Part shown: positions 6,325 to 43,082 of the stretch, in pieces
Layout: each line of letters starts with the position of its first letter
Position numbering within the stretch: position 1 is the first letter of the stretch
IMG/VR virus record: IMGVR_UViG_3300032605_000046
Location: 1 to 43,082 of that record
DNA from: a virus
Strand: one strand, 5' to 3'
Length of the DNA stretch: 43,082 bases
Made by a program: the position numbers and the translations under genes
The notes under the pieces: generated by a model
Told to the model about the DNA's origin: nothing
Databases searched by the model: none
What the model saw: the letters and a program-made list of their open reading frames with translations, nothing else

Positions 6325-6662
6325 TATGAAATTCCTTCGCCTGGAGTAATTTCTGCGCTTGTTGCTGCGCTAGATAAGAACCATCCATTAGGTGGTAAAC
6401 CGCCAATAACAGCAACTCCGTTAGCAGGAATAGAAATAGTATTAGCAGATGGTGCGCCCAATGCTGGTGCAGTTACTGCCAAAGTTACAGCTAAATCGCC
6501 TGGCTCTGGTGGTTGCCATGACACACGAATTAAACTAGAAGTAACGTTCACAATGCGATAGCTTGTAGGATAAACGTTGTTAGACGTTTTAACCTGTACC
6601 GCAGCAGCGTTACCAACTAGGTAAGTCGGCCCCCAAGGGGTAAATGGTGAATTATAAGCCAT
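6324..6662 (-). CDS. Small virion protein, left-arm version (112 aa)
   Basis: The protein begins MAYNSPFTPWGPTYLVGN and ends SSAATSAEITPGEGIS. It contains a beta-rich core with IRVSWQPPEPGDLAV and an Ala-rich strand segment, and resembles a small single-domain tail or decoration protein. The right-arm copy (42622-42960) has the same ends and differs through the middle. The gene lies one step downstream of the 106-residue virion gene at 6673-6993. The exact 127-bp repeat that links the two arms begins at bases 6658-6660, inside this start codon region, so this is the first gene that differs between arms. Function not recognised. Confidence 0.6.
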   Translation of the reverse strand: MAYNSPFTPWGPTYLVGNAAAVQVKTSNNVYPTSYRIVNVTSSLIRVSWQPPEPGDLAVTLAVTAPALGAPSANTISIPANGVAVIGGLPPNGWFLSSAATSAEITPGEGIS

Positions 6663-6784
6663 GATTTTTCCTTTATAGACCTGCTGGCAATTGACCTTCT
6701 GGGCGAATAACTTGAATTACATAGTTACCAGCCAAAGGTGTTGCGCTTGATCCTGATACGTTAGCAAATTGAATTTGCAATGTG
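6658..6784. repeat. 127-bp exact direct repeat, internal copy (node joining the two arms)
   Basis: Bases 6658-6784 equal 42956-43082, the very end of the window. The base before it differs (A at 6657, G at 42955). The length is exactly 127, a common largest k-mer in metagenome assembly. This copy spans the first codon of the 112-residue gene and the 3' part of the 106-residue gene. It closes 6658-42955 into a 36,298-bp circle and leaves 1-6657 as a side branch. Confidence 0.9.
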
Positions 6785-6993
6785 TTAGCAGCAGTTACTT
6801 CAGCTTCTGCATAAATAATACCAGCAGTTTGAGTGCCAATAACACCAATAACAATAATTTGATCAGTTGTTAAAATGCCAGGTACAGTAAATGTTTGGTT
6901 TGATGAAGTACCTGTTACAGCAGCTGGAGTCAATGAAACTGAAAGATATGAAACGCTTAAAGCATTTCCACGAGCAATAGTAGTAGATGACAT
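6673..6993 (-). CDS. Small virion protein, common to both arms (106 aa)
   Basis: It opens SSTTIARGNALSVSYLSVSL and is a beta-rich domain with the segment QTFTVPGILTTDQIIVIGVI. It ends VIRPEGQLPAGL. No catalytic motif, signal peptide or membrane helix stands out, and its composition matches its virion neighbours. A terminator-like hairpin (7043-7067) separates it from the upstream 146-residue gene, so it may open the tail operon. The last 37 codons are repeated exactly at the right window end (42971-43082). Tail or head decoration protein is the best guess from position just after the coat gene. Confidence 0.6.
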   Translation of the reverse strand: MSSTTIARGNALSVSYLSVSLTPAAVTGTSSNQTFTVPGILTTDQIIVIGVIGTQTAGIIYAEAEVTAANTLQIQFANVSGSSATPLAGNYVIQVIRPEGQLPAGL

Positions 6994-7035
6994 GATTTTT
7001 CCTTTAAATAAGGTTAACTAATTATAGGGCTTTAA

Positions 7036-7067
7036 AGAAAAAAAGCCACACTTTTTAGGCATGGCTT
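7036..7067 (-). terminator. Rho-independent terminator after the coat-146 aa unit
   Basis: On the minus strand AAGCCA (7067-7062) pairs with TGGCTT (7048-7043) across a 13-base loop, and the stem is followed by a run of seven U residues (7044-7038). T-rich sequence on the other side makes it potentially bidirectional. It lies in the longest gap of the head region, between the genes ending at 7096 and starting at 6993. It therefore could trim head transcripts before the tail genes. Confidence 0.65.
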
Positions 7068-7095
7068 CTTCTCTTTTTTTTACATTATTTAGCTC

Positions 7096-7536
7096 TTAGC
7101 TAAAGTCGTAACCATAGATGTAAGCATCAAAAGTACCGACTACGCCAGAAGCTGTGCCAACATACACATACAATGTTTGTGCAGAGAAAGCTAAAGTGCT
7201 TTCATAAGCAGTAACAACTTGTGTACCAGCAATTGCTGTTAAGTTAGCTAAGGTTGTAGCAGCAAATACTTCTGAACCTGTACCACCGCTACCACCTGGT
7301 GCTGTGTAAATAGAAGCTACTGTTGAGCTTTCATTTGCTACTGCACCTGCGTTGTTAGCATTAGTATAGATTACAGAGGTAGGTAAATAATTATTAGTAT
7401 TATTTATCTGAACTGCTGTAGAACCTACATAGTTAGAGTTAACACCCTTTACCACAGCCAATAGACGTAAAGCCTGATCGGTTGTGACATTGGAAGGATG
7501 TCCTGAGGTGGTGACTGCTGGGCCTGGATTAGACAT
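7096..7536 (-). CDS. Putative head decoration or minor capsid protein (146 aa)
   Basis: The protein lies directly downstream of the coat gene, 28 bases from its stop. It is Ser/Thr/Ala/Val-rich and mostly beta. It contains a Gly-rich turn (APGGSGGTGSEVF) and ends FDAYIYGYDFS. No enzymatic signature is present. Small proteins encoded immediately after P22-type coat genes are often decoration proteins, but I do not recognise the family, so the role is from position only. A terminator follows its stop codon, grouping it with scaffold and coat in one transcription unit. Confidence 0.55.
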   Translation of the reverse strand: MSNPGPAVTTSGHPSNVTTDQALRLLAVVKGVNSNYVGSTAVQINNTNNYLPTSVIYTNANNAGAVANESSTVASIYTAPGGSGGTGSEVFAATTLANLTAIAGTQVVTAYESTLAFSAQTLYVYVGTASGVVGTFDAYIYGYDFS

Positions 7537-7564
7537 AATAGTTTTCCTTTTCTTTATCCGTTAA

Positions 7565-8839
7565 TTAAGCTGAAACTCGGCAAGCAAGTTCTGGATATAG
7601 AGGAGCCCAACCATACAATACGTCTACACGAGTTGGAATTGAGTCGTTGTTAATTGTGTATTGACGAACAACACGCAATGATAGACCCACTTCTTTATCT
7701 GATGCACGACCAGCAAAGTGAACACCCTCTGGCAATTCCAAGTCAGCAGTAGCCAATGTGAACGCATTGCGGTGCATAACAATGTTTTGTGGTGAAACGA
7801 TACCGTTACCACTTGCATTGTATTGTGATGCAAAGAATGTCACAGCAGCTGATGATACTGGGCTAGGAATTGAAACGTTTTGGAATTGACCGCCAGAAAT
7901 AATTGCTGGTGATACAGTTACTGAAACGCTTGAACCAGAAGCTACAGATACAGCAGATTTAACTACGAATGAACGTAGTTTGTTTGTGCCGTATGCTTGA
8001 CGGTTTTGTGGGTTGACTGCATACACGCCAGCAATTTGGAATGTATCACCAGCGTTCAAGTTGATTGTGCCTGTGTTAGCAGCAGTCAAAGTGATTGTTG
8101 AAGTTTGCGCCCAACCTGAAGTCAAGAAACCAGTCGCTGTAGATGTGTTTACAGATGCAGTTACTGTAGATGTTGAGAAGTTACCAAAAGTTTGTGACAC
8201 AATGTTTTGGTCTAGTTTCCAGTTCATACCACCTGAGTCACGACCCATCAAACCTTTAGTGTATTGGCTAGAGATTTGTTCTGTAGGAACGAACAAACCT
8301 TTCAAGCTGTCAACAGTAGCAGCTGATGTGAATGGCTCGATGATTGCTGAACGACGGCCATCACGAGGTGCGCCTTCAGAGTCAAGATATGCTTGAGCAT
8401 TTAACCAAGTATACAAGCCTGTTGGTGGTGTACCAGCAGTACCTGTAATGTTAGCTGTATTCAAAGCAGCAGTAGTTGTACCATCAAAGTCAATCTTGTT
8501 GGCAATAGCTGCAACGGCTGGTTTTAAGATACGATCTGAGAACATATCCAATGAAAGAGCCAAGTCTTGTGTTGTAAATTGTGTATCAACGTGGAACTGA
8601 GTTGAAAGCGTTACAGGTACTGAAGTTTCGTTCAAGTCCTCTACGTTCAAAGCTGGGCCAGTTGTACCAATGAAACGACCAGGTCTACGAACATTTACAG
8701 TTGCGCCAATTTTTGCGCCTACTACTGCAAATTGATCATCGTAGTTACGATCTACTTCTGATGTAAATGTTAATTCATTCTCTAAGACCATCAACGCTTC
8801 GTTGGTGATCTTGGAAATGGTGAGTAAGGTATTCGCCAT
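7565..8839 (-). CDS. Major capsid protein, P22 coat-like
   Basis: At 424 residues it is close to the ~430-residue P22 coat protein. The N-terminus (NTLLTISKITNEALMVLENE) and the following VGAKIGATVNVRRPGRF, then FHVDTQFTTQDLALSLDMFS, match the P22 coat family with its HK97 fold. The C-terminus (VLYGWAPLYPELACRVSA) also fits. The gene follows the scaffolding gene by 24 bases, and a promoter upstream of the scaffold probably drives both. It is the only coat gene in the window, so both fibre arms share one head. The central beta-rich stretch (about residues 215-330) is where P22 coat carries its inserted domain. Confidence 0.9.
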   Translation of the reverse strand: MANTLLTISKITNEALMVLENELTFTSEVDRNYDDQFAVVGAKIGATVNVRRPGRFIGTTGPALNVEDLNETSVPVTLSTQFHVDTQFTTQDLALSLDMFSDRILKPAVAAIANKIDFDGTTTAALNTANITGTAGTPPTGLYTWLNAQAYLDSEGAPRDGRRSAIIEPFTSAATVDSLKGLFVPTEQISSQYTKGLMGRDSGGMNWKLDQNIVSQTFGNFSTSTVTASVNTSTATGFLTSGWAQTSTITLTAANTGTINLNAGDTFQIAGVYAVNPQNRQAYGTNKLRSFVVKSAVSVASGSSVSVTVSPAIISGGQFQNVSIPSPVSSAAVTFFASQYNASGNGIVSPQNIVMHRNAFTLATADLELPEGVHFAGRASDKEVGLSLRVVRQYTINNDSIPTRVDVLYGWAPLYPELACRVSA

Positions 8840-8863
8840 TTTAATTCTCCAAAAAAATTAGGT

Positions 8864-9769
8864 TTATCTGATCTTATTAGCCTGACGAGCAGCTTTCCAT
8901 TGTGCGTAACTGCCATAATATTCACCATTGGTGTCTATTAAAACGTCTGCGCCCACTGATTTGCCACCAGCCAAAGGCTTGATAGGTTCAGGTGCTTTTG
9001 TATTTCTAACAGGCTCTTTGTCTTTCTTTGAAGGCTTCCCCTCAAGTTCAAGACGAGCTTCTAACTTACCAATTTCTCTTAGAGCTTTAACAGTAGGCAT
9101 TTGAGTTAGCTTAGTAGCATATTCCTCATCTGACGCTAGTAGATATAAAAGCTGTGGCCCTACATCACTTTCTAAGATGCTGTCCCGTATCTCGTCACTA
9201 ACTTGGACTGTACTAGACTGCACCATGCGTTCAAAATCAGGTATTACTTCTTTTACTTTGGCTACTTTCTCATTCCAAGCATTTAATACTTTTTCCTGAG
9301 CCTTTTGAGCCTTGCGATTAGCATCCTCAATATCTCGCTGTTTTAAAGCGTTTTCAGCACTCCACTCAGCTAACGCTTCTGCATATTCAAAAGCATCGTT
9401 AAATTGATGTGCTTGTGGCTTACCTTCTGCTTGAGTCTTTACAGGTTGTTCAGCAGGTGGGGTTTGCCTTGCTTCATACTCTTTAAGTCGCTGTTCTAAT
9501 TGCTGCGCCTTTGCCTCTGCTTCTTTGGCTCTTTGCGTAACTTTATCAAACCGCTTATTTAGCTTGTCAGAACGCTTATCAGAGTTCTGTTCTTTAGCAT
9601 CGCCCTTTGCTTCTGGTTCACTCTTATCTTCATCCTCTGTTGGCTCAGAATCTTTCTTTACAGACTCTACCTCAACTTCGGGTTCTGAATCAGCTAAACC
9701 TAATCTTTCTGCATAAAAGGTTGTTGCGTTGTCACTTGTTACTACACTACTTGCTTCTTTTTCGGCCAT
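8864..9769 (-). CDS. Scaffolding protein
   Basis: The 301-residue, highly charged protein lies between portal and coat, the standard place for a P22-type scaffold. Residues about 25-75 are extremely acidic and Lys-rich. Residues about 75-180 form a long helical and coiled-coil region (AKAQQLEQRLKEYEARQ). The C-terminal half is helical, ending in a basic tail (YGSYAQWKAARQANKIR), as expected for coat binding. It should direct procapsid assembly with the coat protein at 7565-8839 and then leave the shell. It has its own predicted promoter at 9793-9823. No protease motif was seen. Confidence 0.8.
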   Translation of the reverse strand: MAEKEASSVVTSDNATTFYAERLGLADSEPEVEVESVKKDSEPTEDEDKSEPEAKGDAKEQNSDKRSDKLNKRFDKVTQRAKEAEAKAQQLEQRLKEYEARQTPPAEQPVKTQAEGKPQAHQFNDAFEYAEALAEWSAENALKQRDIEDANRKAQKAQEKVLNAWNEKVAKVKEVIPDFERMVQSSTVQVSDEIRDSILESDVGPQLLYLLASDEEYATKLTQMPTVKALREIGKLEARLELEGKPSKKDKEPVRNTKAPEPIKPLAGGKSVGADVLIDTNGEYYGSYAQWKAARQANKIR

Positions 9770-9792
9770 GATTTCTCAAGCTCCATAAAATT

Positions 9793-9823
9793 ACTATATA
9801 TATGATAAAAAACTACTTGTCAA
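9793..9823 (-). promoter_or_regulatory. Sigma70-like promoter for scaffold and coat
   Basis: On the minus strand a perfect TTGACA (9823-9818) is followed, after 17 bases, by TATATA (9800-9795). An overlapping TATAGT (9798-9793) gives a 19-base spacer. The site overlaps the stop codon region of no gene and sits 24-54 bases upstream of the scaffold start, in a 59-bp gap. Extra transcription of scaffold and coat relative to portal makes sense because coat is needed in hundreds of copies. Confidence 0.6.
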
Positions 9824-9828
9824 TCTAT

Positions 9829-10014
9829 CTATTGTGCTTTTTCAGATTTAGCTTCTTTTAGTGCTTCTTTGATAAAAGCCTTTTGCTCTTTAAGTTTAGC
9901 TTTGTCTAGACCTGCAAAAGGGTTAGTAGACTCAGGTTCAAACTTCTTACCTGCTCTACGAGCCATTTCTCGCATTTTCCATTCAAGCGCATTATCGCCA
10001 GTTACTGTTGCCAT
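9829..10014 (-). CDS. Small charged protein between portal and scaffold (61 aa)
   Basis: A 61-residue, Lys/Glu-rich helical protein (ALEWKMREMARRAGKKFEPE, then KAKLKEQKAFIKEALKEAK). It starts 12 bases after the portal stop and is co-directional. Small proteins occur at this place in several P22-like phages, but I do not recognise a characterised function. Its high helicity and charge would fit an assembly helper or a minor scaffold component, which is a guess. Its stop lies just upstream of the scaffold promoter. Confidence 0.6.
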   Translation of the reverse strand: MATVTGDNALEWKMREMARRAGKKFEPESTNPFAGLDKAKLKEQKAFIKEALKEAKSEKAQ

Positions 10015-10026
10015 TTAATTCTCCTT

Positions 10027-12138
10027 TTAAATACCACGTTCAACTGCTTCTGCTTCTGCTTCATGTGCATCTTTCAAATCCATATTAGCCAAAAGTAATG
10101 CTAATTGGGCTTTCATTTGCTCAATCTCTTTTTGTGATTCAGTCTTAATTACTGTGTCATGTGCAATAGTATCGGTACGCAATTGGCTATCCTCACGTTT
10201 AACTTGAAGTTCCATAGTTTTACGTTGAGTTTCAGCTTCTTGTTTTTGCTGTTCAATAGATGCACGATATTTCATGTCCATTTGCAATGCTTCCAACTGT
10301 TGTTGTAGCTGTTGCATTTGTGCTTGTTGCTGTTTGATAATCATTTGCGCTTCTGGTGGTACGTCTGACTTATCATCAACTTGTGCTAATGGGTTAGCAG
10401 CAGCCAATCGGTCAGCAATAATATCTGCGCCAGGGAAATCCATGTTGCGGAATATCAAATCACCAGCTTGTTGCATTAAGTTAGGATCAGCAGTTAGTAA
10501 AGTCATCATAGAGTCTACTGCTTCTTGACGTTTAGATGCGTAGCCTGGGCCTGTTTCCATCACAATATCGTATTCGCCTACAGTGACGTCATTTAATACT
10601 TTATCAACACCCATCTCATCTTGAGATTGCTCATTAATTTTAACTAACTCACCTTTACCATCAGCACCAATGATGCGTAATACTCGTTCTTTATCATAAA
10701 TATGTGGAATTAAATCTAAGCAAATACGGCCTGATTGACGAATTGAACGAGTCAAATTATCGTAATAGTGGAAGTTAGTCATGTCAGTTTGTTGCTGCTG
10801 ACCATTTAACGCTTTACCACTAATCATGCCTGTTGGAAGCTGACTAGGATCGTAAATACCTACAACAGCCATCAAATCAGAGTTTAAGCCTTGTAAAGCT
10901 GTGACCATTCCTGTTGGTGGTGGCTCAGGCTGAATACGTTGTGGAACAGGTGCTGGGTTGCCATCAGAGTCGGTTTGTTTATAGCGCAATACAGGCATTG
11001 ATTTAATGTTAGCTGTATTCCATTCCATCTCGTGGCCTTCGTCTTGGCCTTCTGCGAGTAGATATTTGGCTTTAGGTGCTAACGCTACTGACTCAGTTAA
11101 TGCTGTAGACCAGAAGTTATACATCCGTTGTGGGTCTTTAGCCATGCGAGTAAGACCAAATTTCTTTTTCTTACTATCAACAATTATTTGCTGACCATAA
11201 ACAGGTACAACAGGAATATATTTACCAGGCCAATCCCTTTGTTCTAGGATTTGCATACCTGTTAATTTAGCCCACTTGATTTGCTTTTTAACTGTTTCAC
11301 GCTTAGATACAACGTAAACACCAGCATCCATCATAATTGATTCAGATGGTTTTTCATCCTCATAGCAGGTAGTGCCATCAGACAATAATAGTAATTTGGT
11401 GCGTTTGTATTCAGTCCAAAAATACTCAGCGATACGAATATCCTCACGAGTAATCCATTCTGATTGTGAGTCACCTGTGCCACGAGGGGTAAAGCCACCA
11501 CCATCGTCTGCGCCAGGATACATTTTACGGAATGATTCTTTAGAGATAACTTCTGTGATTAAACACTTTTCAGCATCAGAGCCATCAGGCTCATTAGAGT
11601 TAGGATCAAAGTAAACCATAAAAGCGTTTTCAATGCGCTTAATGTATAACTCTTGGTCAAAGCTATCTGGACTTGGATAGTCGTGAATAATGCGCCAATA
11701 GCCCCATCCCATACGCACAGCAAAGTCAAAAGCGTGGTCGTATGCTGCATCTGCATCAGATTGATTTTCAATATGTCTTAGGATGCCTGTAACGATTTCA
11801 GCGACTTTCTCGTCTGCTTCGTCATTCATGCCATGAGCCACCATGCGTGGGCGTTGTTGTCTTTGTTGGTTACATATTTGACGAACGTATGCATCAATCT
11901 TGTTAATAGTGAGATAGGGTCTAGATTCTAGTAAGCGTGAGTTTTGGATTTCTACAGGCCATTGATCGCCACCAGCAAACTTTAAATCATCTAGTGCTTC
12001 TACACGATTATTTGAGTCATTCTCAGAACAAAATCGTAAATATTCTTTGGCTTCAGTAATAACGCTTGATTCGTAATCATCAGGCTCGCCAAACTCTGTT
12101 GTATAAATACCGCCATTACCGCTATCTTGTGTTGCCAT
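10027..12138 (-). CDS. Portal protein, P22-like
   Basis: At 703 residues it is close to the ~725-residue P22 portal. The N-terminal region (LDDLKFAGGDQWP, RPYLTINKIDAYVRQICNQQ) and the central stem and wing sequence (MGWGYWRIIHDYPSP; FMVYFDPNSNEPDGSDAEK) are characteristic of the P22 portal family. The last ~110 residues are Gln/Lys/Glu-rich coiled coil, matching the barrel helices of P22 portal. Twelve copies should form the vertex through which DNA is packaged and ejected. The gene lies 10 bases downstream of the large terminase gene, an arrangement usual for packaging modules. Confidence 0.9.
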   Translation of the reverse strand: MATQDSGNGGIYTTEFGEPDDYESSVITEAKEYLRFCSENDSNNRVEALDDLKFAGGDQWPVEIQNSRLLESRPYLTINKIDAYVRQICNQQRQQRPRMVAHGMNDEADEKVAEIVTGILRHIENQSDADAAYDHAFDFAVRMGWGYWRIIHDYPSPDSFDQELYIKRIENAFMVYFDPNSNEPDGSDAEKCLITEVISKESFRKMYPGADDGGGFTPRGTGDSQSEWITREDIRIAEYFWTEYKRTKLLLLSDGTTCYEDEKPSESIMMDAGVYVVSKRETVKKQIKWAKLTGMQILEQRDWPGKYIPVVPVYGQQIIVDSKKKKFGLTRMAKDPQRMYNFWSTALTESVALAPKAKYLLAEGQDEGHEMEWNTANIKSMPVLRYKQTDSDGNPAPVPQRIQPEPPPTGMVTALQGLNSDLMAVVGIYDPSQLPTGMISGKALNGQQQQTDMTNFHYYDNLTRSIRQSGRICLDLIPHIYDKERVLRIIGADGKGELVKINEQSQDEMGVDKVLNDVTVGEYDIVMETGPGYASKRQEAVDSMMTLLTADPNLMQQAGDLIFRNMDFPGADIIADRLAAANPLAQVDDKSDVPPEAQMIIKQQQAQMQQLQQQLEALQMDMKYRASIEQQKQEAETQRKTMELQVKREDSQLRTDTIAHDTVIKTESQKEIEQMKAQLALLLANMDLKDAHEAEAEAVERGI

Positions 12139-12148
12139 AATATTTTCC

Positions 12149-13438
12149 TTAGCTCATCCAAGAGGATATGCCATCATAATTCATTGGTTTTCGTTTAACA
12201 ACTTTCTTCTCTTGTATCATTAAGCCAATGTATCTAAACGCATCTGCGCCATGAGAGTATTGATCATGCACAGGCTTTTGACTAAATGCTTTAGTATCTG
12301 GATCAACATCATATCTATAATGACGTAGACAATCTAGACCAGCAGCGGTGTTGTTTTTGTCAAAGTAACATTGGCTAAAGATAGTACGAGCAGCATTGAT
12401 AGAGTCAGCAACAGGCACCCTGCCAATAATTCTGACATTATATCCCGATGAACGCACAATTTCCTCAATACTTCTGCCATGAGATGCAAGGGTTTTGTTT
12501 TGTGCATCGTGTGGTAAATATAGTGTGTCGTATACATAACCAAACGTCTGCATTTTAGCTAGGATTTCACTTATGGTTGTTTGTGTTGTTTCATAGTAAC
12601 GGATAAGTCTAGTTTCCATTCCTACAAATTGTACGAACCAAATAGCTGTAGCGTCTGCCCAACCAATATCGAAAACAGCCATAACAGGCTTAATAGGATC
12701 ATAAGGTACATTAGTAATACGATTATCTTGTTCAGCACGTTGCATCTCTTTGGCAAATACTGCGCCATCAATGGTTGATCTAGTAAAGCCTTCCCATACG
12801 TTTTGATAGGCTTCAAAGTCTTTATTCTTTAGCGACTGACGTTCTAAATCCAATACATCAGGGAACCAGGGATTGTCATTCCAATTAACTTTTTGAACTA
12901 CAGCGTTGTCAGGCGGTGAGATAACAAAGCGTTTATAGGTTTCATCCGTAGGCAACTCAGGATTAAACGTAATCCATATCTCTGAATTTTCTTTCCGAAT
13001 AGTAGGAATAAGAATATCCCAGCTAGTTTGCGTTACATTGTTGGCTTCCTCTACCCAGCAATAATCAATACCCTCAATAGACTTTAAGCCGTTGACGTTA
13101 TTTTTAATGCCAGCAAAGATAAACTCTGTGCCGTTAGTTCCACGAATAGTGGTTTGAGTGATTTCGTAATGCGCCTCTAAACCAAGATTATAGATTTGGT
13201 CTACTAATAACTTATGTACGGAGTCTTTAATTGATGTTTGAAATTCACGAGCACACAGTATGCGTAATGTAGTTTGAACACCCATGCAAAGCAATGCACG
13301 AGCAACTGAATGAGATTTACCAGCACCACGACCACCATACAATATGCGATAGCGTGAGTTTTTTGGTTCAAATAGGCATTTTAGCTTGGCTGGAAACTGT
13401 GGCCAAACAAAACCATTACTGTCCTTCTTTGTTTCCAT
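12149..13438 (-). CDS. terL: Terminase large subunit (packaging ATPase-nuclease)
   Basis: The 429-residue protein has a Walker A loop at residues 34-42 (YGGRGAGKS). A Walker B with catalytic glutamates sits at 124-131 (IDYCWVEE), a coupling motif at about 155-160 (WITFNPE), and a C-terminal RNase H-like nuclease domain begins with FDIGWADATA (D257, D262). PHDAQNK lies further on. This is the Terminase_3/PBSX-type architecture. It should cut concatemers and drive DNA through the portal, encoded immediately downstream. Its 5' end overlaps the small terminase gene by 23 bases, which suggests coupled translation. Confidence 0.92.
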   Translation of the reverse strand: METKKDSNGFVWPQFPAKLKCLFEPKNSRYRILYGGRGAGKSHSVARALLCMGVQTTLRILCAREFQTSIKDSVHKLLVDQIYNLGLEAHYEITQTTIRGTNGTEFIFAGIKNNVNGLKSIEGIDYCWVEEANNVTQTSWDILIPTIRKENSEIWITFNPELPTDETYKRFVISPPDNAVVQKVNWNDNPWFPDVLDLERQSLKNKDFEAYQNVWEGFTRSTIDGAVFAKEMQRAEQDNRITNVPYDPIKPVMAVFDIGWADATAIWFVQFVGMETRLIRYYETTQTTISEILAKMQTFGYVYDTLYLPHDAQNKTLASHGRSIEEIVRSSGYNVRIIGRVPVADSINAARTIFSQCYFDKNNTAAGLDCLRHYRYDVDPDTKAFSQKPVHDQYSHGADAFRYIGLMIQEKKVVKRKPMNYDGISSWMS

Positions 13439-13775
13439 TAGGCTCTACGAATGAAATATTGATACCTTTTACTTCTGCACCTTCACCAGCAGCAATCTCA
13501 GTCACGTTGGTTTCTTTCCAACCTGCTCTAGTCTTTAACCAAAAAATCATAGCTGCTACGTTGCCGTTTTTAGCTTGAGCAAATAAACCTTGACCAATGG
13601 AAGCGTTGGCATCGATTCGCCCTTCCTCTAATTCTTTCTTGTAATGCTTGCGTAATGTGTCATCAGTAATATCTAGCTTGGTTGCTATGTCAACGTAACG
13701 AATACCCACAGCACTTAAACTACGCACCAGCTTGCGTGAGGACTCGTCAGGGATGTGTTCTATGCCTTGTGCCAT
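13416..13775 (-). CDS. terS: Probable terminase small subunit
   Basis: A 119-residue protein whose N-terminal half is a helix-turn-helix (YVDIATKLDITDDTLRKHYK). The following segment (AMIFWLKTRAGWKE) is typical of small terminase and phage DNA-recognition subunits. It overlaps the large subunit gene by 23 bases and ends in a flexible acidic tail. The expected role is recognition of the packaging site and loading of the large subunit. Assignment rests on the HTH, the motif and the strict position before terL. Confidence 0.8.
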   Translation of the reverse strand: MAQGIEHIPDESSRKLVRSLSAVGIRYVDIATKLDITDDTLRKHYKKELEEGRIDANASIGQGLFAQAKNGNVAAMIFWLKTRAGWKETNVTEIAAGEGAEVKGINISFVEPNGNKEGQ

Positions 13776-13776
13776 T

Positions 13777-14976
13777 TTATAACTCCGAAACTAACTGTGC
13801 TTTCTTGCCGGTAAAGTCTTCCCAACGCTTAACAATAACGTCACAGTAAGCTGGTGATAGCTCCATCATAAAGCAATCACGATTGTTTTTTTCACAGGCA
13901 ATAAGCGTTGAACCTGAACCACCAAACAAATCTAAAACATTTTGTTTATATAGACTTCCATGACGTATAGCACGTTCACATAACTCAATAGGTTTTTTAG
14001 TAGCGTGTTCCTCATCTTTTTTGCGTTGAATGCGCCAAACATCTTGATATTCTTTTTCGCCCTCTTTGTTAGTAGCTAAAGGTGGCTTTCCTTTTTTACA
14101 TACATGAATAAACTCGTGTGTATATTTATAATCGCTACCTAACCCATGAACCATTTTGTCCCACACAATTAAATTAGTAAATTTCCAATGGTTTTTAAGA
14201 TGTGGCACTAACTCATATGATCTGCGCCAATCTAAACATACATAAATAAATGAATTGTCTTTAGTAGCTATATCATAACTAACGCAAAAATCAGCCATAA
14301 ACTGTTGCCATTCCTCATCAGAATAGTCGTCGTCGAACATATGGTTCAACCAGGTTGAACCAGAGTTCGATTTGGCAGACATTCCTGTGTTATATGGCGG
14401 ATCAGTAAAAACCATGTCAGCTTTCTGTCCATCCATTAACTTATCCACAGCATCAATGCTTGTGCTATCGCCACACATCAAACGATGATTGCCTAATAGA
14501 TATATATCCCCCAACTTTGTAATAGGCTCGTCAGGAACGTCAGGAACGGCATCCTCATCGGTTAAGCCTTCAATCTGTTCTGGCTCTAATAATTTAGCTA
14601 ATTCATCAGCATTAAAGCCTAATACAGATAGATCAAAGTCATCGTCAGCTAGGTTTTTAAGTTCTAGCGTTAATAGTTCAAAGTCCCAATCAGCGTTTAA
14701 AGCTAGTTTATTGTCAGCAATGATTAAGGCTTTTTTCTGAGCATCAGATAGATGGGCCAATTCAATAACTGGTACTTTATCCATCTTGAGCTTGCGAGCA
14801 GCAAGTAAACGACCATGACCAGCAATAATGCCACTGTCCCCATCAACAAGAATAGGATTAGTCCAGCCAAACTCTGTAATGCTGGCTGCGATTTGTGCCA
14901 CCTGCTCATCAGAATGTTTCCTACTGTTATTGATGTAAGGAATTAAGTCTTTAATTGGTCGCTGTTCTATTTTCAT
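13777..14976 (-). CDS. ParB-like domain fused to a DNA methyltransferase
   Basis: Residues 1-90 form a ParB/sulfiredoxin-like domain (IKDLIPYINNSRKHSDEQVA, IIAGHGRLLAARKL). Residues ~155-395 form an amino-methyltransferase with the catalytic DPPY at 192-195 and the SAM-binding DLFGGSGST at 349-357. The catalytic motif precedes the SAM motif, so this is the beta-type order, giving N6-adenine or N4-cytosine methylation. Such fusions are frequent in phages and prophages next to terminase genes. They probably modify phage DNA against host restriction. Specificity cannot be read from sequence. The start overlaps the stop of the upstream small gene by 4 bases. Confidence 0.88.
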   Translation of the reverse strand: MKIEQRPIKDLIPYINNSRKHSDEQVAQIAASITEFGWTNPILVDGDSGIIAGHGRLLAARKLKMDKVPVIELAHLSDAQKKALIIADNKLALNADWDFELLTLELKNLADDDFDLSVLGFNADELAKLLEPEQIEGLTDEDAVPDVPDEPITKLGDIYLLGNHRLMCGDSTSIDAVDKLMDGQKADMVFTDPPYNTGMSAKSNSGSTWLNHMFDDDYSDEEWQQFMADFCVSYDIATKDNSFIYVCLDWRRSYELVPHLKNHWKFTNLIVWDKMVHGLGSDYKYTHEFIHVCKKGKPPLATNKEGEKEYQDVWRIQRKKDEEHATKKPIELCERAIRHGSLYKQNVLDLFGGSGSTLIACEKNNRDCFMMELSPAYCDVIVKRWEDFTGKKAQLVSEL

Positions 14977-35223: not shown

Positions 35224-36213
35224 CTACCTAAAGAAACCTCCCGAAAGTATCCAGCCTGCGTCCTTTGCACGACCAACCAACATTGAATCAGGATAGCCAG
35301 CAGCAGCGATAGGTTGCATATTATTACGTTTAATCGTTGATTTAGCTTGTGCTGCGTTTTGTTGAATCATTGCAATTTGGATTTGGCTAGATTTGCCATA
35401 CATAGGCATTAATCGTTCTGCTAGATTCCATCTTAAAGCCATTGAGTAACCTTGAGGCAATACAATGTCATCGTATAAAGTTTCATAGTTACTGAAAATA
35501 GTAGATGAAAACATGTGCATTTCACCTTGCGCTGGGTTAGGCCATACAAATACATTACCTGATACAGCGTTAGGATTGTAATAAAGTGCTTTAGGCCAAG
35601 GGCCATTTAAAGTCTTTAAGCCAATTTGATTGTAGTTTTCTAATGCAAGAATAGCGACTTGATAATCAAGACCGCCATTAGCTACAGGCTCGCCATTAGA
35701 GTTTGTATTAACACGCACATAGGCTTGGTCAATAAACAAAGGCTTTTGATAGTAAGCTGTGACGTTTTCAGAGGTTACAGGGCTTGTATAAGTGATGTTT
35801 AACTTATAAGTACCTGTTTCGTTCACTTGACCGCCAGCACCTGTTAAAAACTCTACAATTTTAGTGCCTGGAATAATACCTGTGCCTTTAAGCGTTTGTC
35901 CTTGCGCTACTGCACCGCTACTTAAACCGCTTACTGTTAGAATATCGTCTGTAATAGAAGCAGTAAAGACTGCGCCAATAAAGTTAGCCGTAGATGGTGT
36001 TGGCCCGATAGTGTATTGAACTTGACCAGCAATCAAAGGGAATATGATTTCGGTAGTGTTATAAACCATCATGTCCTCGTTAGACCATTGGTCTACAAGA
36101 TCATTAAGCATATCAAACGCATCTTGCGCTGCATCTGCCGTTGGCACTTCACCTGATTCTAATGCGCCAATGTCTTTTAAGGCTCGGCTAATAATATCTA
36201 TTGGCTTTGTCAT
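35224..36213 (-). CDS. P22 gp4-like tail accessory protein, right-arm copy
   Basis: The 329-residue protein is nearly identical to the left-arm copy outside the central insert. Compare [20 protein letters not shown] at the start and [20 protein letters not shown] at the end. The inserted beta-rich region (about residues 76-155) differs more (FTASITDDILTVSGLSSGAV, then GQTLKGTGIIPGTKIVEF). The HNH gene follows 55 bases downstream and gp10-like after that, so the closure genes are separated by the endonuclease. Role as for the left copy: extension of the portal channel. Confidence 0.87.
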   Translation of the reverse strand: MTKPIDIISRALKDIGALESGEVPTADAAQDAFDMLNDLVDQWSNEDMMVYNTTEIIFPLIAGQVQYTIGPTPSTANFIGAVFTASITDDILTVSGLSSGAVAQGQTLKGTGIIPGTKIVEFLTGAGGQVNETGTYKLNITYTSPVTSENVTAYYQKPLFIDQAYVRVNTNSNGEPVANGGLDYQVAILALENYNQIGLKTLNGPWPKALYYNPNAVSGNVFVWPNPAQGEMHMFSSTIFSNYETLYDDIVLPQGYSMALRWNLAERLMPMYGKSSQIQIAMIQQNAAQAKSTIKRNNMQPIAAAGYPDSMLVGRAKDAGWILSGGFFR

Positions 36214-36222
36214 TATTTATCC

Positions 36223-36720
36223 TTAATCCACAAATTCAACTACATCATTAACATTTAAACCAGTAATAAAAGTAATGGTTGTTGTATTTGTTTCATTATA
36301 ATTTAAAGTAACAATCTGTTTGCTTCCGTTTACATAAACTTTTAAATTGTTTGATCCAACAACATAAGAAAATGGAACTGTAAAAACAGTTTGATCTTGT
36401 GTTGCAGTTGTATATCCTGATTCACCATTTGCAGAACCATTAATATTGTCCGCACTCCAAATTTGATTAAATGATGCATCTTGCAAAATAAATTTATAAC
36501 CCAAAGATGCAGTTAGCCAAATTTCACTAGAAGGCCTTCCAGCAGAATTTAAAACAATAGGATTTGAATTTGCTACGCTTCCAGAAGCAGATGTATAAGT
36601 TGCCAATGGTGTTGATGTTCCAGCAGCATAGGTATATATCAAACCACCAGATAAAGGAATACCATTGTTATCAAAAAACTGCCATCCTGCGCCACCTATT
36701 GGTGAAAGTACAACTGCCAT
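36223..36720 (-). CDS. Tailspike head-binding-type protein (165 aa)
   Basis: ATG 36720 follows TTAGGAGCATAAAA. A frame extending further upstream lacks such a site. Residues ~4-95 (LSPIGGAGWQFFDNNGIPLS, GGLIYTYAAGTSTPLATYTS, NPIVLNSAGRPSSEIWL, FNQIWSADNI) match the head-binding domain of podovirus tailspikes. The rest (about 70 residues) is a short beta domain with FTVPFSYVVGSNNLKVYVNG. It stands alone without a receptor-binding beta-helix. It could be an adaptor or a spike that lost its distal part. Confidence 0.75.
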   Translation of the reverse strand: MAVVLSPIGGAGWQFFDNNGIPLSGGLIYTYAAGTSTPLATYTSASGSVANSNPIVLNSAGRPSSEIWLTASLGYKFILQDASFNQIWSADNINGSANGESGYTTATQDQTVFTVPFSYVVGSNNLKVYVNGSKQIVTLNYNETNTTTITFITGLNVNDVVEFVD

Positions 36721-36730
36721 TTTTATGCTC

Positions 36731-37048
36731 CTAACTATTCGGTGTAAAAACTTGAGGAAGCCAAGGCGCAATAACAGTTTTTTTAGAATTTATTACATTT
36801 AACTGTTCCTCTAGTCTTGATTTTATAAGGTTTCTTCCGTCTTTCATAGTTTCTCTTTCAATCCAAGAAGCTACCATTTCTTCTGTAACCTGATCAAAAG
36901 GCACTTTAGCTTCTGTGCTGTTAAACCACCAATTACCTTCAGTTTCTACAATTTGATTTTGATCAGTAAGGCTAACTTTGTATTTAGCATGAGTAATTAA
37001 ACCATTGTTGGCTGATATATCAAGAATTGACCATTTGTAATTCATCAT
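36731..37048 (-). CDS. DUF7936-like fibre-partner protein, right arm copy 1 (105 aa)
   Basis: The protein (MNYKWSILDISANNGLITHA, then VETEGNWWFNSTEAKVPFDQ, and APWLPQVFTPNS) aligns closely with the left-arm gene at 2793-3116, including the ends. It overlaps the beta-helix spike by one base and precedes the head-binding-type gene. It is the second of three family members in the window, each next to a fibre or spike gene. Assembly partner or minor tail protein is inferred. Confidence 0.65.
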   Translation of the reverse strand: MMNYKWSILDISANNGLITHAKYKVSLTDQNQIVETEGNWWFNSTEAKVPFDQVTEEMVASWIERETMKDGRNLIKSRLEEQLNVINSKKTVIAPWLPQVFTPNS

Positions 37049-38589
37049 TAATTTTCCGTTTCAGCGTACCATTGAAAATTAGAAGCGGAGCTTGTTGTAA
37101 CTGAAATGCAAATTGTTCCTGAAGCTACATAAGATTCACTTGTAGCTCCTCCTGGTACATTTCCAAAACATACAACTGCTCCTAATTGACCAGGAACAGC
37201 TCTATTTGGTGTTTGCCATATTAATTCTTTATCTGCAAATAATAATCCATTAGAACCATTGTATTGATAGGTTACAGAATAAACAGCTTCTTCAGCAGCA
37301 GAATATACAGTTGAAGCTGATGTTGTTGGATTTCCTTTTACAGATACTTTCCATACTGTTGAACCACCCCAAAATGGCAAAACAACAGACTGATAAGTGC
37401 TAGTATTATTTATATAAGCAAAACCTGAAACATTTTTTATACTTATGTTTGGTGTTAATTGCGTTGTATTAATATTTAATCTTGTTGCAGGGCAATTAAC
37501 AACATCTCCACCTTTAATATTTAAAGCAGTTAAATTATTATTTATTGTTGCAATAGGGCCATATAAATTTCTAAATTCACATCCATCAAAATTATAAGAA
37601 CCATATCCTGCATTTAATACAGAAGCCGTTGTGCTTTGTGTATATGATGGTGAACTTGCATTACCATCAAAAATACATCCTTTAAAAGATACATTTAATG
37701 TTGCTCCAGTATTGTAAACAATAGCATAGTTATACATATTTCTAAAAGTGCAACCAGTAAACAATGCTTGCAAATTTTGTGCTGCCAAATTTACAAATCC
37801 TGTAAAGGTTGTATATTGCGTATTCATTACAAAATCAACGCCAGTAAAAGATATAGATTGAACAGAAGTTGCGCCTGAAAATAAAACTGAATTATATAAA
37901 GCATATTCTATTGTTCCATTTGATATTTGAATATCACGAGCATTATCAGAAACACTTATTCCATAATTAGCTAAATAAATATCAAAGTTAGTTATTGAAA
38001 TATTTTGAGATGCGTTTAATATAATTCCGTTTAATGCTTGATCTATTTGAATATTTGATATAAGACCATCAGATCCACCATCAATAGAAATTCCTCCACC
38101 ACAAGCAGACATAAACATATCAGAAATAGAAAATCCTGAACAAGTAACTGATATAACTGAAGATGCTCCAGGCCCACCTAAAGTAAATAAATTTGACATT
38201 CTTGCTGGTTGTCCCCCACTATCTGGAGTAACTACACCAGCTATAAGTCCTGATCCCATAATAAATGCAGGAACAGATGAATTTGTAAAAGTAGTGCAGT
38301 TAATATAAGAAGAAGTTTCTCCTGTTCCGTAAAAAGTTTGTCCTTTTCGTACATAGACAGTTCCACTAATTTTATAAGTACCAGCAGGAACAACAATGTT
38401 ATATTGCAACGCACTTGACCATGCTACTGTAGCTTGTGTGGCAGCATTAAAAGCTGCTGTACTATCTGTAACACCTGTTGGATCGGCCCCAAAATCTAAA
38501 ACAGAAATTGTTTCTGATAATTTTTGATTAATAGGTCTATTAACAGAACCTGTTATGCCTTCATAATATTTTGGAATTAATGTTGTCAT
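37048..38589 (-). CDS. Beta-helix tailspike, pectate-lyase-3-like (513 aa)
   Basis: The region SVLDFGADPTGVTDSTAAFN is the classical start of the pectate-lyase-3 or glycoside-like beta-helix. It is followed by IVVPAGTYKISGTVYVRKGQ and then repeated N-rich rungs (ISITNFDIYLANYGISVSDN; RDIQISNGTIEYALYNSVLF). The first 28 residues (LIPKYYEGITGSVNRPINQK) dock it to the virion and are unlike the P22 head-binding domain. It should bind and perhaps cut a surface polysaccharide. Catalytic residues cannot be assigned by eye. It is found only in the right arm. Confidence 0.82.
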   Translation of the reverse strand: MTTLIPKYYEGITGSVNRPINQKLSETISVLDFGADPTGVTDSTAAFNAATQATVAWSSALQYNIVVPAGTYKISGTVYVRKGQTFYGTGETSSYINCTTFTNSSVPAFIMGSGLIAGVVTPDSGGQPARMSNLFTLGGPGASSVISVTCSGFSISDMFMSACGGGISIDGGSDGLISNIQIDQALNGIILNASQNISITNFDIYLANYGISVSDNARDIQISNGTIEYALYNSVLFSGATSVQSISFTGVDFVMNTQYTTFTGFVNLAAQNLQALFTGCTFRNMYNYAIVYNTGATLNVSFKGCIFDGNASSPSYTQSTTASVLNAGYGSYNFDGCEFRNLYGPIATINNNLTALNIKGGDVVNCPATRLNINTTQLTPNISIKNVSGFAYINNTSTYQSVVLPFWGGSTVWKVSVKGNPTTSASTVYSAAEEAVYSVTYQYNGSNGLLFADKELIWQTPNRAVPGQLGAVVCFGNVPGGATSESYVASGTICISVTTSSASNFQWYAETEN

Positions 38590-38608
38590 ATAGAGCCTTT
38601 TTAAAAAT

Positions 38609-38959
38609 TTAAGCCCAAGGTAATTTAGGACTTGTTATCAAACTATTTTGTATATTTGTTAATTGACTATCAAGATTAAATTCAATTGCAGAAACACCTG
38701 ATAAATTTGAAGCAGCTAGTTCAGCGTTTTGAAATTGATTTTGTACCCATGAAATAATTTGTGATTCTGTTAATTGATTAAATGGAATAAATGAATTTGA
38801 TGATACATATGGAATATCCATATCAAAATTTAATGTAGCAATATTAGTTCCATCTGTACCAATAACTGTACAAAATGCTTTTGAAACCACATTAGATTCT
38901 CCATTTAAATTTGGATTAACTAAAAGAGAATTTATTTTCCATGTATAAGTATTTGACAT
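38609..38959 (-). CDS. DUF7936-like fibre-partner protein, right arm copy 2 (116 aa)
   Basis: The 116-residue protein reads NTYTWKINSLLVNPNLNGES, then VVSKAFCTVIGTDG, FIPFNQLTESQIISWVQNQF and ends SPKLPWA. The plan (YTW start, beta region, LTE-x-x-I-x-x-W-V helix, PW end) matches a recognised family of small phage proteins that I recall as DUF7936. It follows the 356-residue fibre-like gene. Its role is not established. Confidence 0.65.
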   Translation of the reverse strand: MSNTYTWKINSLLVNPNLNGESNVVSKAFCTVIGTDGTNIATLNFDMDIPYVSSNSFIPFNQLTESQIISWVQNQFQNAELAASNLSGVSAIEFNLDSQLTNIQNSLITSPKLPWA

Positions 38960-38960
38960 A

Positions 38961-40031
38961 TTACAATCTTTTAACTAAATAAACAGTTTGGTTATATCCA
39001 ATATTTCCAGTATCTTGATAAGTTACTTTGATTCTTATTTGATTAGTTGTTGGGCTTGTAGTAAATGTAGATTCAGATGAGCCATTCCAAAATACTGCCG
39101 TTACTACTAATTGTGCTGGAAAAACAGGCGCAGCATTAATTCCTAATTGAGTATAAGAAATATAATTTCCACCAGTCGTTCCGTTATATCCATAACTAAC
39201 AAATATTAATCCTGCGATAGTAGAATAATAATTAGTGTTTCCTGTTGCATAAGGATCTCCACCAATACAAACATCATAAATTGCACCTAAACCATATCCA
39301 ATAGTTGCAGTATTACTATAAATTCCAGTATCTACTATTGAATAAGGACTGCTTGTACTTGTCTGAGAATAAGTTTTTCCATGTAAAACATTAAAAGTTC
39401 CTAAATTAGGATTTGTTGATCCTATTGATGTGCCATCTATAGACCCTCCTGTTATTGAAACTGATGTCGAATTTTGAGTTGACATTGTTCCAAGACCAGT
39501 AATTGATGTATTTGGGATGGTTGTAGAAGCAGTCATTGCTCCTGTTCCGTTGCCATAAACATAACCAGTTAATGTAGTTGCTCCTGTTCCACCATTAGCA
39601 GCTACAAGAGTTCCTGCAACAGTTACAGCACCTTTTGTAGATGTAGAAGGTGTTAATCCAGTAGTTCCAAAATTAATGCTTGTAACTGCAAGAGTGTTTG
39701 GATTAGTCCATTGGGGAGCAGATCCGCTAGAAGTTAAAAAATAACCGCTAGTTCCAATCCCAAGTTTTGTAAATGCAGATCCTGATGCGTAATAAGTTAA
39801 ATCACCAGCGGTATAGCTAGTAAGTCCAGTACCGCCAGCATTTGTAGGAGTGGTTTTCCAAGCAATTGTTTGAACAGAACCACCAGAATCTTTATAAAAT
39901 AATTTTCCATCAGCAATATTAATTGCTAATTCAGACCCTGTAGAATTATTTAATAAATTTGTAGCAAGAGGCGTATTAGAAGCCGTAGAGCTTGAATATA
40001 TTAATAAAGGGGTAAATCCTGTTTGCGCCAT
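38961..40031 (-). CDS. Tail fibre-like protein (356 aa)
   Basis: The N-terminus TGFTPLLIYSSSTASNTPLA, then SELAINIADGKLFYKDSGGS, is typical of phage fibre N-termini. The middle has NAGGTGLTSYTAGDLTYYAS and NGGTGATTLTGYVYGNGTGA motifs common in fibres. The C-terminal ~140 residues form a separate beta domain that is less repetitive (YGLGAIYDVCIGGDPYATGN; NQIRIKVTYQDTGNIGYNQT) and could bind the receptor. It lies directly after the large right-arm fibre, overlapping nothing. Only in the right arm. Confidence 0.7.
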   Translation of the reverse strand: MAQTGFTPLLIYSSSTASNTPLATNLLNNSTGSELAINIADGKLFYKDSGGSVQTIAWKTTPTNAGGTGLTSYTAGDLTYYASGSAFTKLGIGTSGYFLTSSGSAPQWTNPNTLAVTSINFGTTGLTPSTSTKGAVTVAGTLVAANGGTGATTLTGYVYGNGTGAMTASTTIPNTSITGLGTMSTQNSTSVSITGGSIDGTSIGSTNPNLGTFNVLHGKTYSQTSTSSPYSIVDTGIYSNTATIGYGLGAIYDVCIGGDPYATGNTNYYSTIAGLIFVSYGYNGTTGGNYISYTQLGINAAPVFPAQLVVTAVFWNGSSESTFTTSPTTNQIRIKVTYQDTGNIGYNQTVYLVKRL

Positions 40032-42140
40032 TTAAAAAGCTCCTCCACCCATACCACCAATAGAAGTTAAAACTCCTGTAGATGGGTTAAATTGAAGTTT
40101 AGTAGAAGAAGTATTTAAAGGCAAATTTCCTGTAGTTGTATTTACAATTGTTGGATAATATGTAGCATTTGTGCTTGTGTTATCAGTAATTGCTACGTTA
40201 TTTGCGTTTGTAGCAGTTGTAGCCGTTGTTGCGCTAGATGCAGAACCGCTAATATTTACTGCTAAAGAAGTAATTGATCCGCTTGCAGCGTTCAAAGCTA
40301 CGGCAGTTGTGCCAATATAAAGCGTTGAATTACTCAATACGCCACTAGGAATAGTTCCTGTTAAATTACCAGCAGTAAGGCTAGTTAAACTTGCTCCCGA
40401 TCCGCTAAATCCTGTGGCTGTAAGAACGCCAGTAGAAGGATTAAATTGATATTTAGTAGAGCTTGTATATTCAGTTGTAAGATTTCCCGTAGTTTGATTA
40501 GCAAACAAAGGATAGCGAGTCGCATTAGTTGTTGTATCGTCAGTTACTGTTGCATAGGATGTTGGCGTAGTCCACGCAAAGCCACCGCCAGTTGTATAGC
40601 TTAAAACTGTGTTATTTGTAGGAACAGTAATAAATGAAGTTGCTCCTGCGCCTGATTGATAAGGAATATATCCTGCACCACCACCAGCTAAATTAGTTGC
40701 AGTAGTTGCTGTTGTTGCAGAGCCTACAGATAAAGTAGATTGCGCTACATATTGAGGGGCAGAAGCACCAGCCGTCAAAACATAATTAGTCGTGCCTAAT
40801 GATAGGAATGTAGTTACACCTGCGCTTGATTGATAATGCAAAGCACCAGCAGAACCACCAGCCACGTTAGTCGCACTTGCAGCAAGCGTAGCAGAAGCTA
40901 CAGCACCACTTACAATTGATCCAAGTATAGACGTTAGCCATGTAGGATTTGAATAGCTACCAGTTGAATAAAGCCCATTGGTGACTGTTCCTGCATTACC
41001 TGTAATGCCAATTCCCCAAGTACCTGATGCGTTTGTACCTGTTGTTGAAGGTGCGCCAATCGTATTGTATGAAATTGTGTGTGCAGCAGAGCCATTAAAT
41101 GTTGTGCCTGTTGCGCCACCTGATCCGCCATTATTAAATGTCAATGAATTAGGTGTGTTAGCAGTTACTGTCGTTGAACCACCCAAGCTAACTGCATTGC
41201 CGTTAATCGTAATGGACGAATTAGCCAAATAACTATTAGCAATCGGGTTAGCGTTCCATGTACCTGCTGTTAATGTTCCTACTCCTGTAATACCTGTGTA
41301 TGAACCACTAATTAAGCTAGATGCAATCGTTCCGCTAGTGATTTGACTAGCACCAATGGCAATAGATACATTACTTGCGTTAGTTAATTGACCTTGAGCA
41401 TTAACAGTAAATGTGCCAACACTTGATGCAGAGCCATAAGAACCTAGCGTAACTGTTGTATTGGTAATAGAAAATTGATTAGCAGATAAAGTTAAGCCTG
41501 TTCCTGCTGTGTAAGTATTAATTGCAGAAAATTGCACCCAAGGCATTGCAGTTACATTTATTGTGCCTGTATCAGAAGCAGTACAAACCCATCCTGTATC
41601 AGCTTGACCGCCATTTAAAATGACTGTGTATGCGCCTGGCACTTCTGACCATACATCCATGTCAGTTGCACGAGTCCAAGCACTTGCAGAAGCGTTATAA
41701 ATGCCGTTGTATTGACTAGAACTTTGATTTTTTACTAATACTCTATCGCCAGCCAACGTAGTATAGCCATCAATAGTTTGTAAGCCTGATAGCGTAATGT
41801 TGGTTGTTGTTGCACATTTACACGCTGCTTTAGGGCCAAGACCTTGTGCTACAGTATCTACATAAAACTTATTAGCAATGTCAGTATTGCCACTAGGTGT
41901 AGTGATAACTTGACCTGTTGTCGTTAGAACATTAGTAAAAACTCCCGTTGAGGGAGTAGTTGCACCAATTGTCGTACTGTTAATCGTACTATTGGTTATA
42001 TTTAATCCTGATTGACTAGGATTGATAGAAGCATAAAAAGGCTGACCCTGACCGATAAAAGTCTGAAAGTTTCCGTAAACGTCAAAGTACGCTTGAACAG
42101 GCAGTAAATTTTGGTCTACAGTTGAACTAGGGCCAGCCAT
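40032..42140 (-). CDS. Large tail fibre, right-arm version (702 aa)
   Basis: Residues 1-80 equal the left-arm fibre almost exactly. Residues 80-560 are related with scattered differences, and then the two diverge. It has KFYVDTVAQGLGPKAACKCA, the ASQITSGTIASSLISGSYTG unit and two AGG-x5-YQS(S/G)AG units. It ends at GVLTSIGGMGGGAF without the SGSRWVI ending of the left fibre and is 181 residues shorter. The Gly-rich end and the separate fibre and spike genes downstream suggest that it serves as a proximal or branched fibre here. Confidence 0.83.
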   Translation of the reverse strand: MAGPSSTVDQNLLPVQAYFDVYGNFQTFIGQGQPFYASINPSQSGLNITNSTINSTTIGATTPSTGVFTNVLTTTGQVITTPSGNTDIANKFYVDTVAQGLGPKAACKCATTTNITLSGLQTIDGYTTLAGDRVLVKNQSSSQYNGIYNASASAWTRATDMDVWSEVPGAYTVILNGGQADTGWVCTASDTGTINVTAMPWVQFSAINTYTAGTGLTLSANQFSITNTTVTLGSYGSASSVGTFTVNAQGQLTNASNVSIAIGASQITSGTIASSLISGSYTGITGVGTLTAGTWNANPIANSYLANSSITINGNAVSLGGSTTVTANTPNSLTFNNGGSGGATGTTFNGSAAHTISYNTIGAPSTTGTNASGTWGIGITGNAGTVTNGLYSTGSYSNPTWLTSILGSIVSGAVASATLAASATNVAGGSAGALHYQSSAGVTTFLSLGTTNYVLTAGASAPQYVAQSTLSVGSATTATTATNLAGGGAGYIPYQSGAGATSFITVPTNNTVLSYTTGGGFAWTTPTSYATVTDDTTTNATRYPLFANQTTGNLTTEYTSSTKYQFNPSTGVLTATGFSGSGASLTSLTAGNLTGTIPSGVLSNSTLYIGTTAVALNAASGSITSLAVNISGSASSATTATTATNANNVAITDNTSTNATYYPTIVNTTTGNLPLNTSSTKLQFNPSTGVLTSIGGMGGGAF

Positions 42141-42148
42141 GTGTTTCC

Positions 42149-42622
42149 TTAAAATGGAATTGCATTAACTAAAATTACATCACCAGCAGACATATTAGCA
42201 GCCGCACCTGTTGTTACAGAAAAGCTAGTAAATGTGACTGAAGTTGCTGTGCTTCCAGTTAATTGTAAAAACAATGTACTACCACTTGTTACATCAGCAG
42301 CAAAAGCCAACCAACCATTTGGTGCTGTTGGTAAAGTAATAGTGCCATTTGCAGCCCCACCTGTACCAACAACAATTTTAAACACAAAAGTGCTTGTTGC
42401 TGAAATTGTAGGGTTAGTACCAAAACCACTGCTAATAGTAGGTAATGATGTTGTTGTTGCTAATAAATTACCATTTAAAGAAATAGAACTTGCGTTATAA
42501 GGCGCAAGTAACTGATTCCCACCTTGACCAATTAAACCTGTACATACATTGTTTACATTGTACTGAGCTTGTACTGGCAAAATGTTATTGGTAACTGTTG
42601 ATGCTACTTGGTTTGAACTCAT
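42149..42622 (-). CDS. Small tail protein with fibre-type anchor, right-arm version (157 aa)
   Basis: Counterpart of the gene at 5785-6324: ASTVTNNILPVQAQYNVNNV, then GLIGQGGNQLLAPYNA, at the start, and SAGDVILVNAIPF at the end. The central region is shorter by 22 residues and differs in sequence. The N-terminus shares the STV-x-N-x-LPVQA element with the large fibre encoded next to it. Virion location is likely, exact role unknown. Confidence 0.65.
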   Translation of the reverse strand: MSSNQVASTVTNNILPVQAQYNVNNVCTGLIGQGGNQLLAPYNASSISLNGNLLATTTSLPTISSGFGTNPTISATSTFVFKIVVGTGGAANGTITLPTAPNGWLAFAADVTSGSTLFLQLTGSTATSVTFTSFSVTTGAAANMSAGDVILVNAIPF

Positions 42623-42960
42623 TATGAAATCCCTTCGCCTGGAGTAATTTCAGCACTAGAAGCAGCACTAGAAATAAACCAAGCATTAGGTGGAATATAA
42701 CCAATAACGGCTACTCCGTTAGCAGGTACAGCAATTGTATTAGCTTGCGGTGTTGTTAAGCCTGGCGCAGTTACCGTAACAGTAACAGCTAAATCATTAG
42801 GCTCTGGCGGTTGCCATGAAACATGAATCAAGCTAGAAGTAATATTGACAATCCGATAGCTAGATGGATATACGTTATTACTTGTTTTAACTTGAACCGA
42901 TGCCAAACTTCCCACAAGATACGTTGGGCCAAAAGGCGAAAACGGTGAGTTATAGGCCAT
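42622..42960 (-). CDS. Small virion protein, right-arm version (112 aa)
   Basis: Same length and ends as the left copy at 6324-6662 (MAYNSPFSPFGPTYLVGSLA; SSAASSAEITPGEGIS), with substitutions in between. Its start codon lies in the exact repeat that joins the arms. On the circular reading it is preceded by the common 106-residue gene. Function not recognised; small tail or decoration protein. Confidence 0.6.
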   Translation of the reverse strand: MAYNSPFSPFGPTYLVGSLASVQVKTSNNVYPSSYRIVNITSSLIHVSWQPPEPNDLAVTVTVTAPGLTTPQANTIAVPANGVAVIGYIPPNAWFISSAASSAEITPGEGIS

Positions 42961-43082
42961 GATTTTTCCTTTATAGACCTGCTGGCAATTGACCTTCTGG
43001 GCGAATAACTTGAATTACATAGTTACCAGCCAAAGGTGTTGCGCTTGATCCTGATACGTTAGCAAATTGAATTTGCAATGTG
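42956..43082. repeat. 127-bp exact direct repeat, terminal copy
   Basis: Identical to 6658-6784, running exactly to the window end. See the internal copy for the meaning. It shows that the sequence following 43082 is at least compatible with continuing at 6785. Confidence 0.9.
42971..43082 (-). CDS. 3' part of the 106-aa virion gene, cut by the window edge
   Basis: The frame ending at TAA 42973-42971 is open to the window end and encodes the last 37 residues of the protein at 6673-6993, without a difference. It is not a broken gene: the start is simply missing because the window ends. On the circular reading it is the same gene. Confidence 0.85.
   Translation of the reverse strand, partial: TLQIQFANVSGSSATPLAGNYVIQVIRPEGQLPAGL

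Follow-up and report, generated by a model that had tools for sequence, protein, structure and literature searches.

A 43-kb viral contig read as a lariat: a 36.3-kb circular P22-like phage genome joined to a piece of a related phage

The virus record IMGVR_UViG_3300032605_000046 ends with 127 bases (42956–43082) that are an exact copy of its internal bases 6658–6784, which raises the question of whether the window, that is, the entire record of 43,082 bases, is one viral genome or a product of assembly. A sequence-only reading had proposed that it is a lariat, composed of a 36.3-kb circle and a 6.66-kb alternative arm, with a repeat left by a k=127 assembly graph. Based on a reconstruction of this graph and on related contigs, we find that the window is very probably a lariat-form assembly chimera, consisting of the 36,298-bp circle of one phage (phage A) and a 6.7-kb piece of a related one (phage B). 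The 43-kb genome is not real as biology. Feature coordinates are given in Table 1.

Table 1 Features of the window, with the phage of origin where two copies are present.
Feature	Position	Strand	Remarks
Left arm, piece of phage B	1..6657	-	Cut within an ORF at base 1; 100% identical to IMGVR_UViG_3300032665_000261
Endonuclease VII-like	1387-1788	-	Left arm, which also holds small virion genes
gp4-like, B copy	1798-2784	-	Left arm
Fibre, B copy	3125-5776	-	Left arm
Phage A, circularly mapping genome, P22-like, 36,298 bp	6658..42955	.	Closure junction in three other contigs
Internal copy of 127-mer, first k-mer common to A and B (fork vertex)	6658..6784	+	Two incoming edges, one outgoing (k=127 graph)
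Block common to A and B, holds s106	6658..7005	.	347/348 identical, one SNP at 6816
16-bp start-codon/ribosome-site repeat CATGATTTTTCCTTTA, left edge of exchanged block	6660..6675	-	Exact copies at 6660, 6991 and 42958 (inside the 127-bp repeat)
s106, 106-aa gene adjoining head genes	6673..6993	-	Passed to B from an A-type phage
16-bp repeat CATGATTTTTCCTTTA, second copy, at the right edge of exchanged block	6991..7006	-
A head and packaging genes	7565..15215	-	All head and packaging entries lie on this block
Coat	7565-8839	-	PF11651, E 9.4e-36
Scaffold	8864-9769	-
Portal	10027-12138	-
TerL	12149-13438	-	PF04466
Probable TerS	13416-13775	-	By position
DNA methylase	13777-14976	-
A late arm	26635..42960	-
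Ejection-type protein	30269-31132	-	A late arm
gp10-like	32149-34587	-	phrog_578, E 6.7e-90; PDB gp10 chains, E 5.8e-13 to 4e-5
HNH	34590-35168	-	A late arm
gp4-like, A copy	35224-36213	-	A late arm
Pectate-lyase-like spike	37048-38589	-	A late arm
Fibre, A copy	40032-42140	-	A late arm
112-aa gene, A copy	42622-42960	-	A late arm
Terminal copy of 127-bp exact repeat	42956..43082	+	Overlap left where A's edge reaches the fork

Origin of the 127-base repeat

The longest repeated suffix of the window is 127 bases, and an exact repeat of this length cannot be due to chance. As the sequence-only reading stated, the match ends at 6657/42955: the flanks diverge immediately (A at 6657, G at 42955), and upstream of the two copies 39 of 60 bases are alike. 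A natural direct terminal repeat was rejected, since one copy is internal, at 6658, and the sequence at base 1 is unique within the window. An invertible fibre cassette was likewise set aside; the repeat is direct, not inverted, and there is a single shared junction.

Several observations place the origin of the repeat in the assembler, as had been suspected. Breaks in metaSPAdes assemblies leave end sequences of the largest k-mer length, and regions common to different genomes were among the break causes simulated in the COBRA paper (PMC10914622). JGI has run metaSPAdes with -k 33,55,77,99,127 (PMC11584781), and the sample of the window was presumably also assembled at k=127. Comparison of each contig end with the contig interior in 16 longer relatives revealed two more lariats. 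The first 127 bases of 3300025423_000050 (35,929 bp) recur exactly at 35130 and those of 3300032579_000041 (39,924 bp; two coat genes) at 35039, followed in both by diverged homologous sequence, which gives circles of 35,129 and 35,038 bp, respectively. These repeats lie in different genes and have no sequence in common with the repeat of the window, which rules out a biological site as their cause. Two closed relatives also have 127-bp end repeats, of unrelated sequence, and in some others the end repeats are not 127 but 123 or 101 bp, possibly a consequence of different assembly settings.

A k=127 graph built from circle A and phage B has forks at 6658–6784 and 6879–7005 and a one-base bubble at 6816. 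The long edge of A runs from 6879 to exactly 43082, and the window corresponds to B's arm, the shared stretch and this long edge in series. The graph gives no account of the contig break at base 1; a search with bases 1–51 returned phage B as the sole match. The repeat thus has the length of the largest k of the JGI protocol, the same length occurs in unrelated sequences, and with both genomes in the graph the fork falls at the vertex of the repeat, all of which are features of a de Bruijn overlap artefact. The case is similar to a metaSPAdes break at a region common to different genomes (PMC10914622), in which the end repeat equals the largest k and is found again on the sequence expected to come next. 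It differs in that the overlap of the window lies inside the same contig, since the assembler also joined the arm of the second genome upstream.

Phage A as a 36,298-bp circle

The lariat topology requires closure of 42955 onto 6658, and this junction is present in three IMG/VR contigs from other assemblies: 3300006114_000092, 3300025411_000457 and 3300006116_000535. All three pass from the right arm through 42955 directly into 6658, 6785 and the core, with the gene order 112-aa gene, s106, s146, coat, scaffold, portal and TerL. They have 0 mismatches with the window in the 200 bases preceding the junction and ~94–95% identity across the core. Sequence past 43082, which had been proposed as a check on the circle, does proceed in relatives as from 6785 onward. 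A further contig, 3300032562_000994, is 100% identical to 6658–14301 and terminates exactly at 6658, as expected where the graph forks; when the core just beyond 14301 was searched for exact matches, no other contig came up. The stretch of A between about 21.4 and 40.1 kb is spanned by no close relative; for it, the circle depends on the window's own sequence and on the order of genes in relatives further away. A search with the 528-aa protein found no relative.

The size of the circle fits that of closed relatives, which are 31.7–36.6 kb overall: after closing, those that have end repeats measure 31,693 to 34,502 bp, and the circular GenBank relatives MW202674.1 and MW202520.1 are 36,633 and 33,597 bp. 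The proposal of a 36.3-kb rather than a 43-kb genome is borne out.

Closing the circle also gives the anticipated P22-like order, with TerL, portal, scaffold and coat in sequence and each in single copy. A P22-type coat, a gp10-type stabilization protein and an ejection-type protein, together with YqaJ exonuclease, SSB, NinG and lysozyme, mark phage A, as judged from its predicted proteins, as a P22-like podophage. It resembles podophages of this type, including MW202674.1 and MW202520.1, in head and tail gene order, size range, and coat and gp10 homology. It differs from them in its extra fibre genes and in the DNA of the coat region, which is only 68–69% identical. The gp4-like protein has a weak adaptor match (phrog_637, 3e-5) and no match in the PDB; its name and role are positional only. 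Literature on freshwater P22-like phages yielded nothing specific. The DNA methylase has a ParB-like N-terminal part and is encoded immediately upstream of the terminase genes. Two adjacent ORFs at 17846–18968 have in common repeated QPAQEPVA stretches and a THPHQW-GLTDDE segment, with no Pfam match.

The coat gene is uninterrupted in the window and is interrupted by about 210–240 bp in three relatives: 3300032579_000041 (about 398–611), MW202674.1 (record positions 16847–17089) and 3300047463_000062 (within 10001–11510). The inserts of the first two are similar in sequence and occupy the same site, after HVD near residue 86, and that of the third lies at a different site, near residue 40. The inserts have GACTAAGTGAGA and GATGCGATAGTCTGAAC in common and look like a small group I intron core, although against Rfam they matched no family at E below 1 except chance hits.

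Phage B and the exchange of s106

Positions 1–6815 of the window are 100% identical to the phage B contig, which extends 10,470 bp beyond window base 1 and there encodes its own gp10 homologue (42% aa identity), an ejection-type gene and a nuclease gene. Past 7005 phage B departs from the window, with an s146 of 46% amino acid identity and a coat 97% identical. The diverged s146 and gp10 homologue indicate that the left arm belongs to a core of its own. Therefore, the view of the left 6.66 kb as an alternative arm on the same core did not survive: the arm is that of a second phage with a different core, and only 6658–7005 is common to the two. The read depth to be expected also changes. With a second phage as the source, A should be uniform over 7006–42955 and B should cover 1–6657, with A and B adding up only over 6658–7005, rather than left and right arms together equalling the core.

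The sequence-only reading pointed out that the linear window holds gp4, fibre and small virion genes twice, and these duplicates are real but diverged. Amino acid identity between left and right copies is 89% for the gp4-like gene, 76% for the fibre, 80% for the 112-aa gene, 46% for the 179/157-aa gene and 48% for the 107/105-aa gene. The gp4-like gene is present in one copy in each relative having it and in two in the window alone. The duplicated genes derive from two phages. The nuclease genes directly downstream of the gp4-like gene differ, being endonuclease VII-like in B and HNH/homing-type in A. The 80,308-bp contig 3300025401_000022 has one gp4-like gene (86% aa identity) near its start and no coat of the P22-like family of the window; either a further chimera or a larger phage may account for it.

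Phages A and B are 99.7% identical over 6658–7005 only, and identity is 74.6% in the neighbouring gene on one side and 57.6% on the other. In a related type, B' (3300025598_000383 and 3300025429_000404), the 112-aa gene, s146 and coat are near-identical to those of B (97.6%, 99.3% and 99.1%, respectively), but the s106 block is different (66.7%). Because B resembles B' in the flanks and A in the s106 block, the comparison shows a clear single-gene exchange in which B received s106 from an A-type phage. Searches of s106 against PHROG and Pfam gave no match. Copies of CATGATTTTTCCTTTA at 6660 and 6991 bracket s106 and cover the start codon and ribosome site of two adjoining genes, and the exchange may have made use of them. 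The window, the B contig and most likely 3300032562_000994 all reflect the junction at 6658, which is thus not the error of one assembly. The s106 exchange resembles phage mosaicism by homologous recombination (e.g., PMC3945230) in that one gene is replaced between phages that are related and the edges are sharp. It differs in that these edges lie at a 16-bp start-codon/ribosome-site sequence flanking the gene on both sides, which would have served in the exchange.

The most probable course of events is as follows. Phage A and the related B, carrying A's 106-aa gene after homologous exchange, would have been members of one community. Their genomes merge, in a de Bruijn graph with k=127, at the first shared 127-mer, 6658–6784; they form a one-base bubble at 6816 and separate again beyond 7005. 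Walking leftward from A's core, the assembler would have taken B's arm at the fork; walking rightward along A's right arm, it would have come to a halt at this fork too, so that the contig ends in the 127-base overlap. Since the shared stretch is longer than usual short reads, such a join could easily be wrong, and we infer that the join of B's arm to A's core is false.

Alternative explanations and implications

One alternative is a true recombinant C living alongside A, with B's arm on A's core and a biological join at 6657/6658; both the lariat and the 36.3-kb circle of A would stay in place. The A alleles at 6816 and from 7006 do stand directly after B's arm in the window, and B itself proves that recombination between the A and B types takes place at this spot. 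However, all 6,657 bp of the arm are 100% identical to the B strain whose contig enters B's own core, 348 shared bp with one SNP suffice for a false join, and no contig of the virus collection besides the window has the B-arm/A-core join. We therefore regard recombinant C as unlikely. It is just as doubtful that lake podophages swap whole receptor-binding arms beside the 16-bp CATGATTTTTCCTTTA repeat, with A, B and recombinant C coexisting in one water body.

Far less probable still is one genuine linear genome of 43 kb, in which a tail module is duplicated and the 127-bp repeat is functional or due to chance. The deposited contig reads this way and open frames are intact in both arms, but the arms match two different phages at 98–100% near the junction, relatives carry one gp4-like gene, closed relatives fall within the size range given above, and a repeat as long as the assembler's k turns up at three unrelated sites. 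Duplication of the module within one genome was rejected on the basis of the single-copy relatives and the closure contigs. We give scarcely any credence to a phase-variable receptor cassette, i.e., one phage switching two arms by recombination at the repeat: both arms do carry variants of the same fibre genes, but there is a single shared junction, the repeat is direct, the far end of the left arm never rejoins A, and B, with its own core, is a genome in its own right.

With the chimera of A and B as the preferred reading, the record is corrected to a circularly mapping phage genome of 36.3 kb rather than a 43-kb linear fragment. Completeness tests restricted to comparing one contig end with the other overlook such lariats, and comparison of each end with the interior finds them. 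What is left is of modest interest: a corrected genome, a simple way of detecting lariats and a clean case of one gene exchanged between lake phages that are related.
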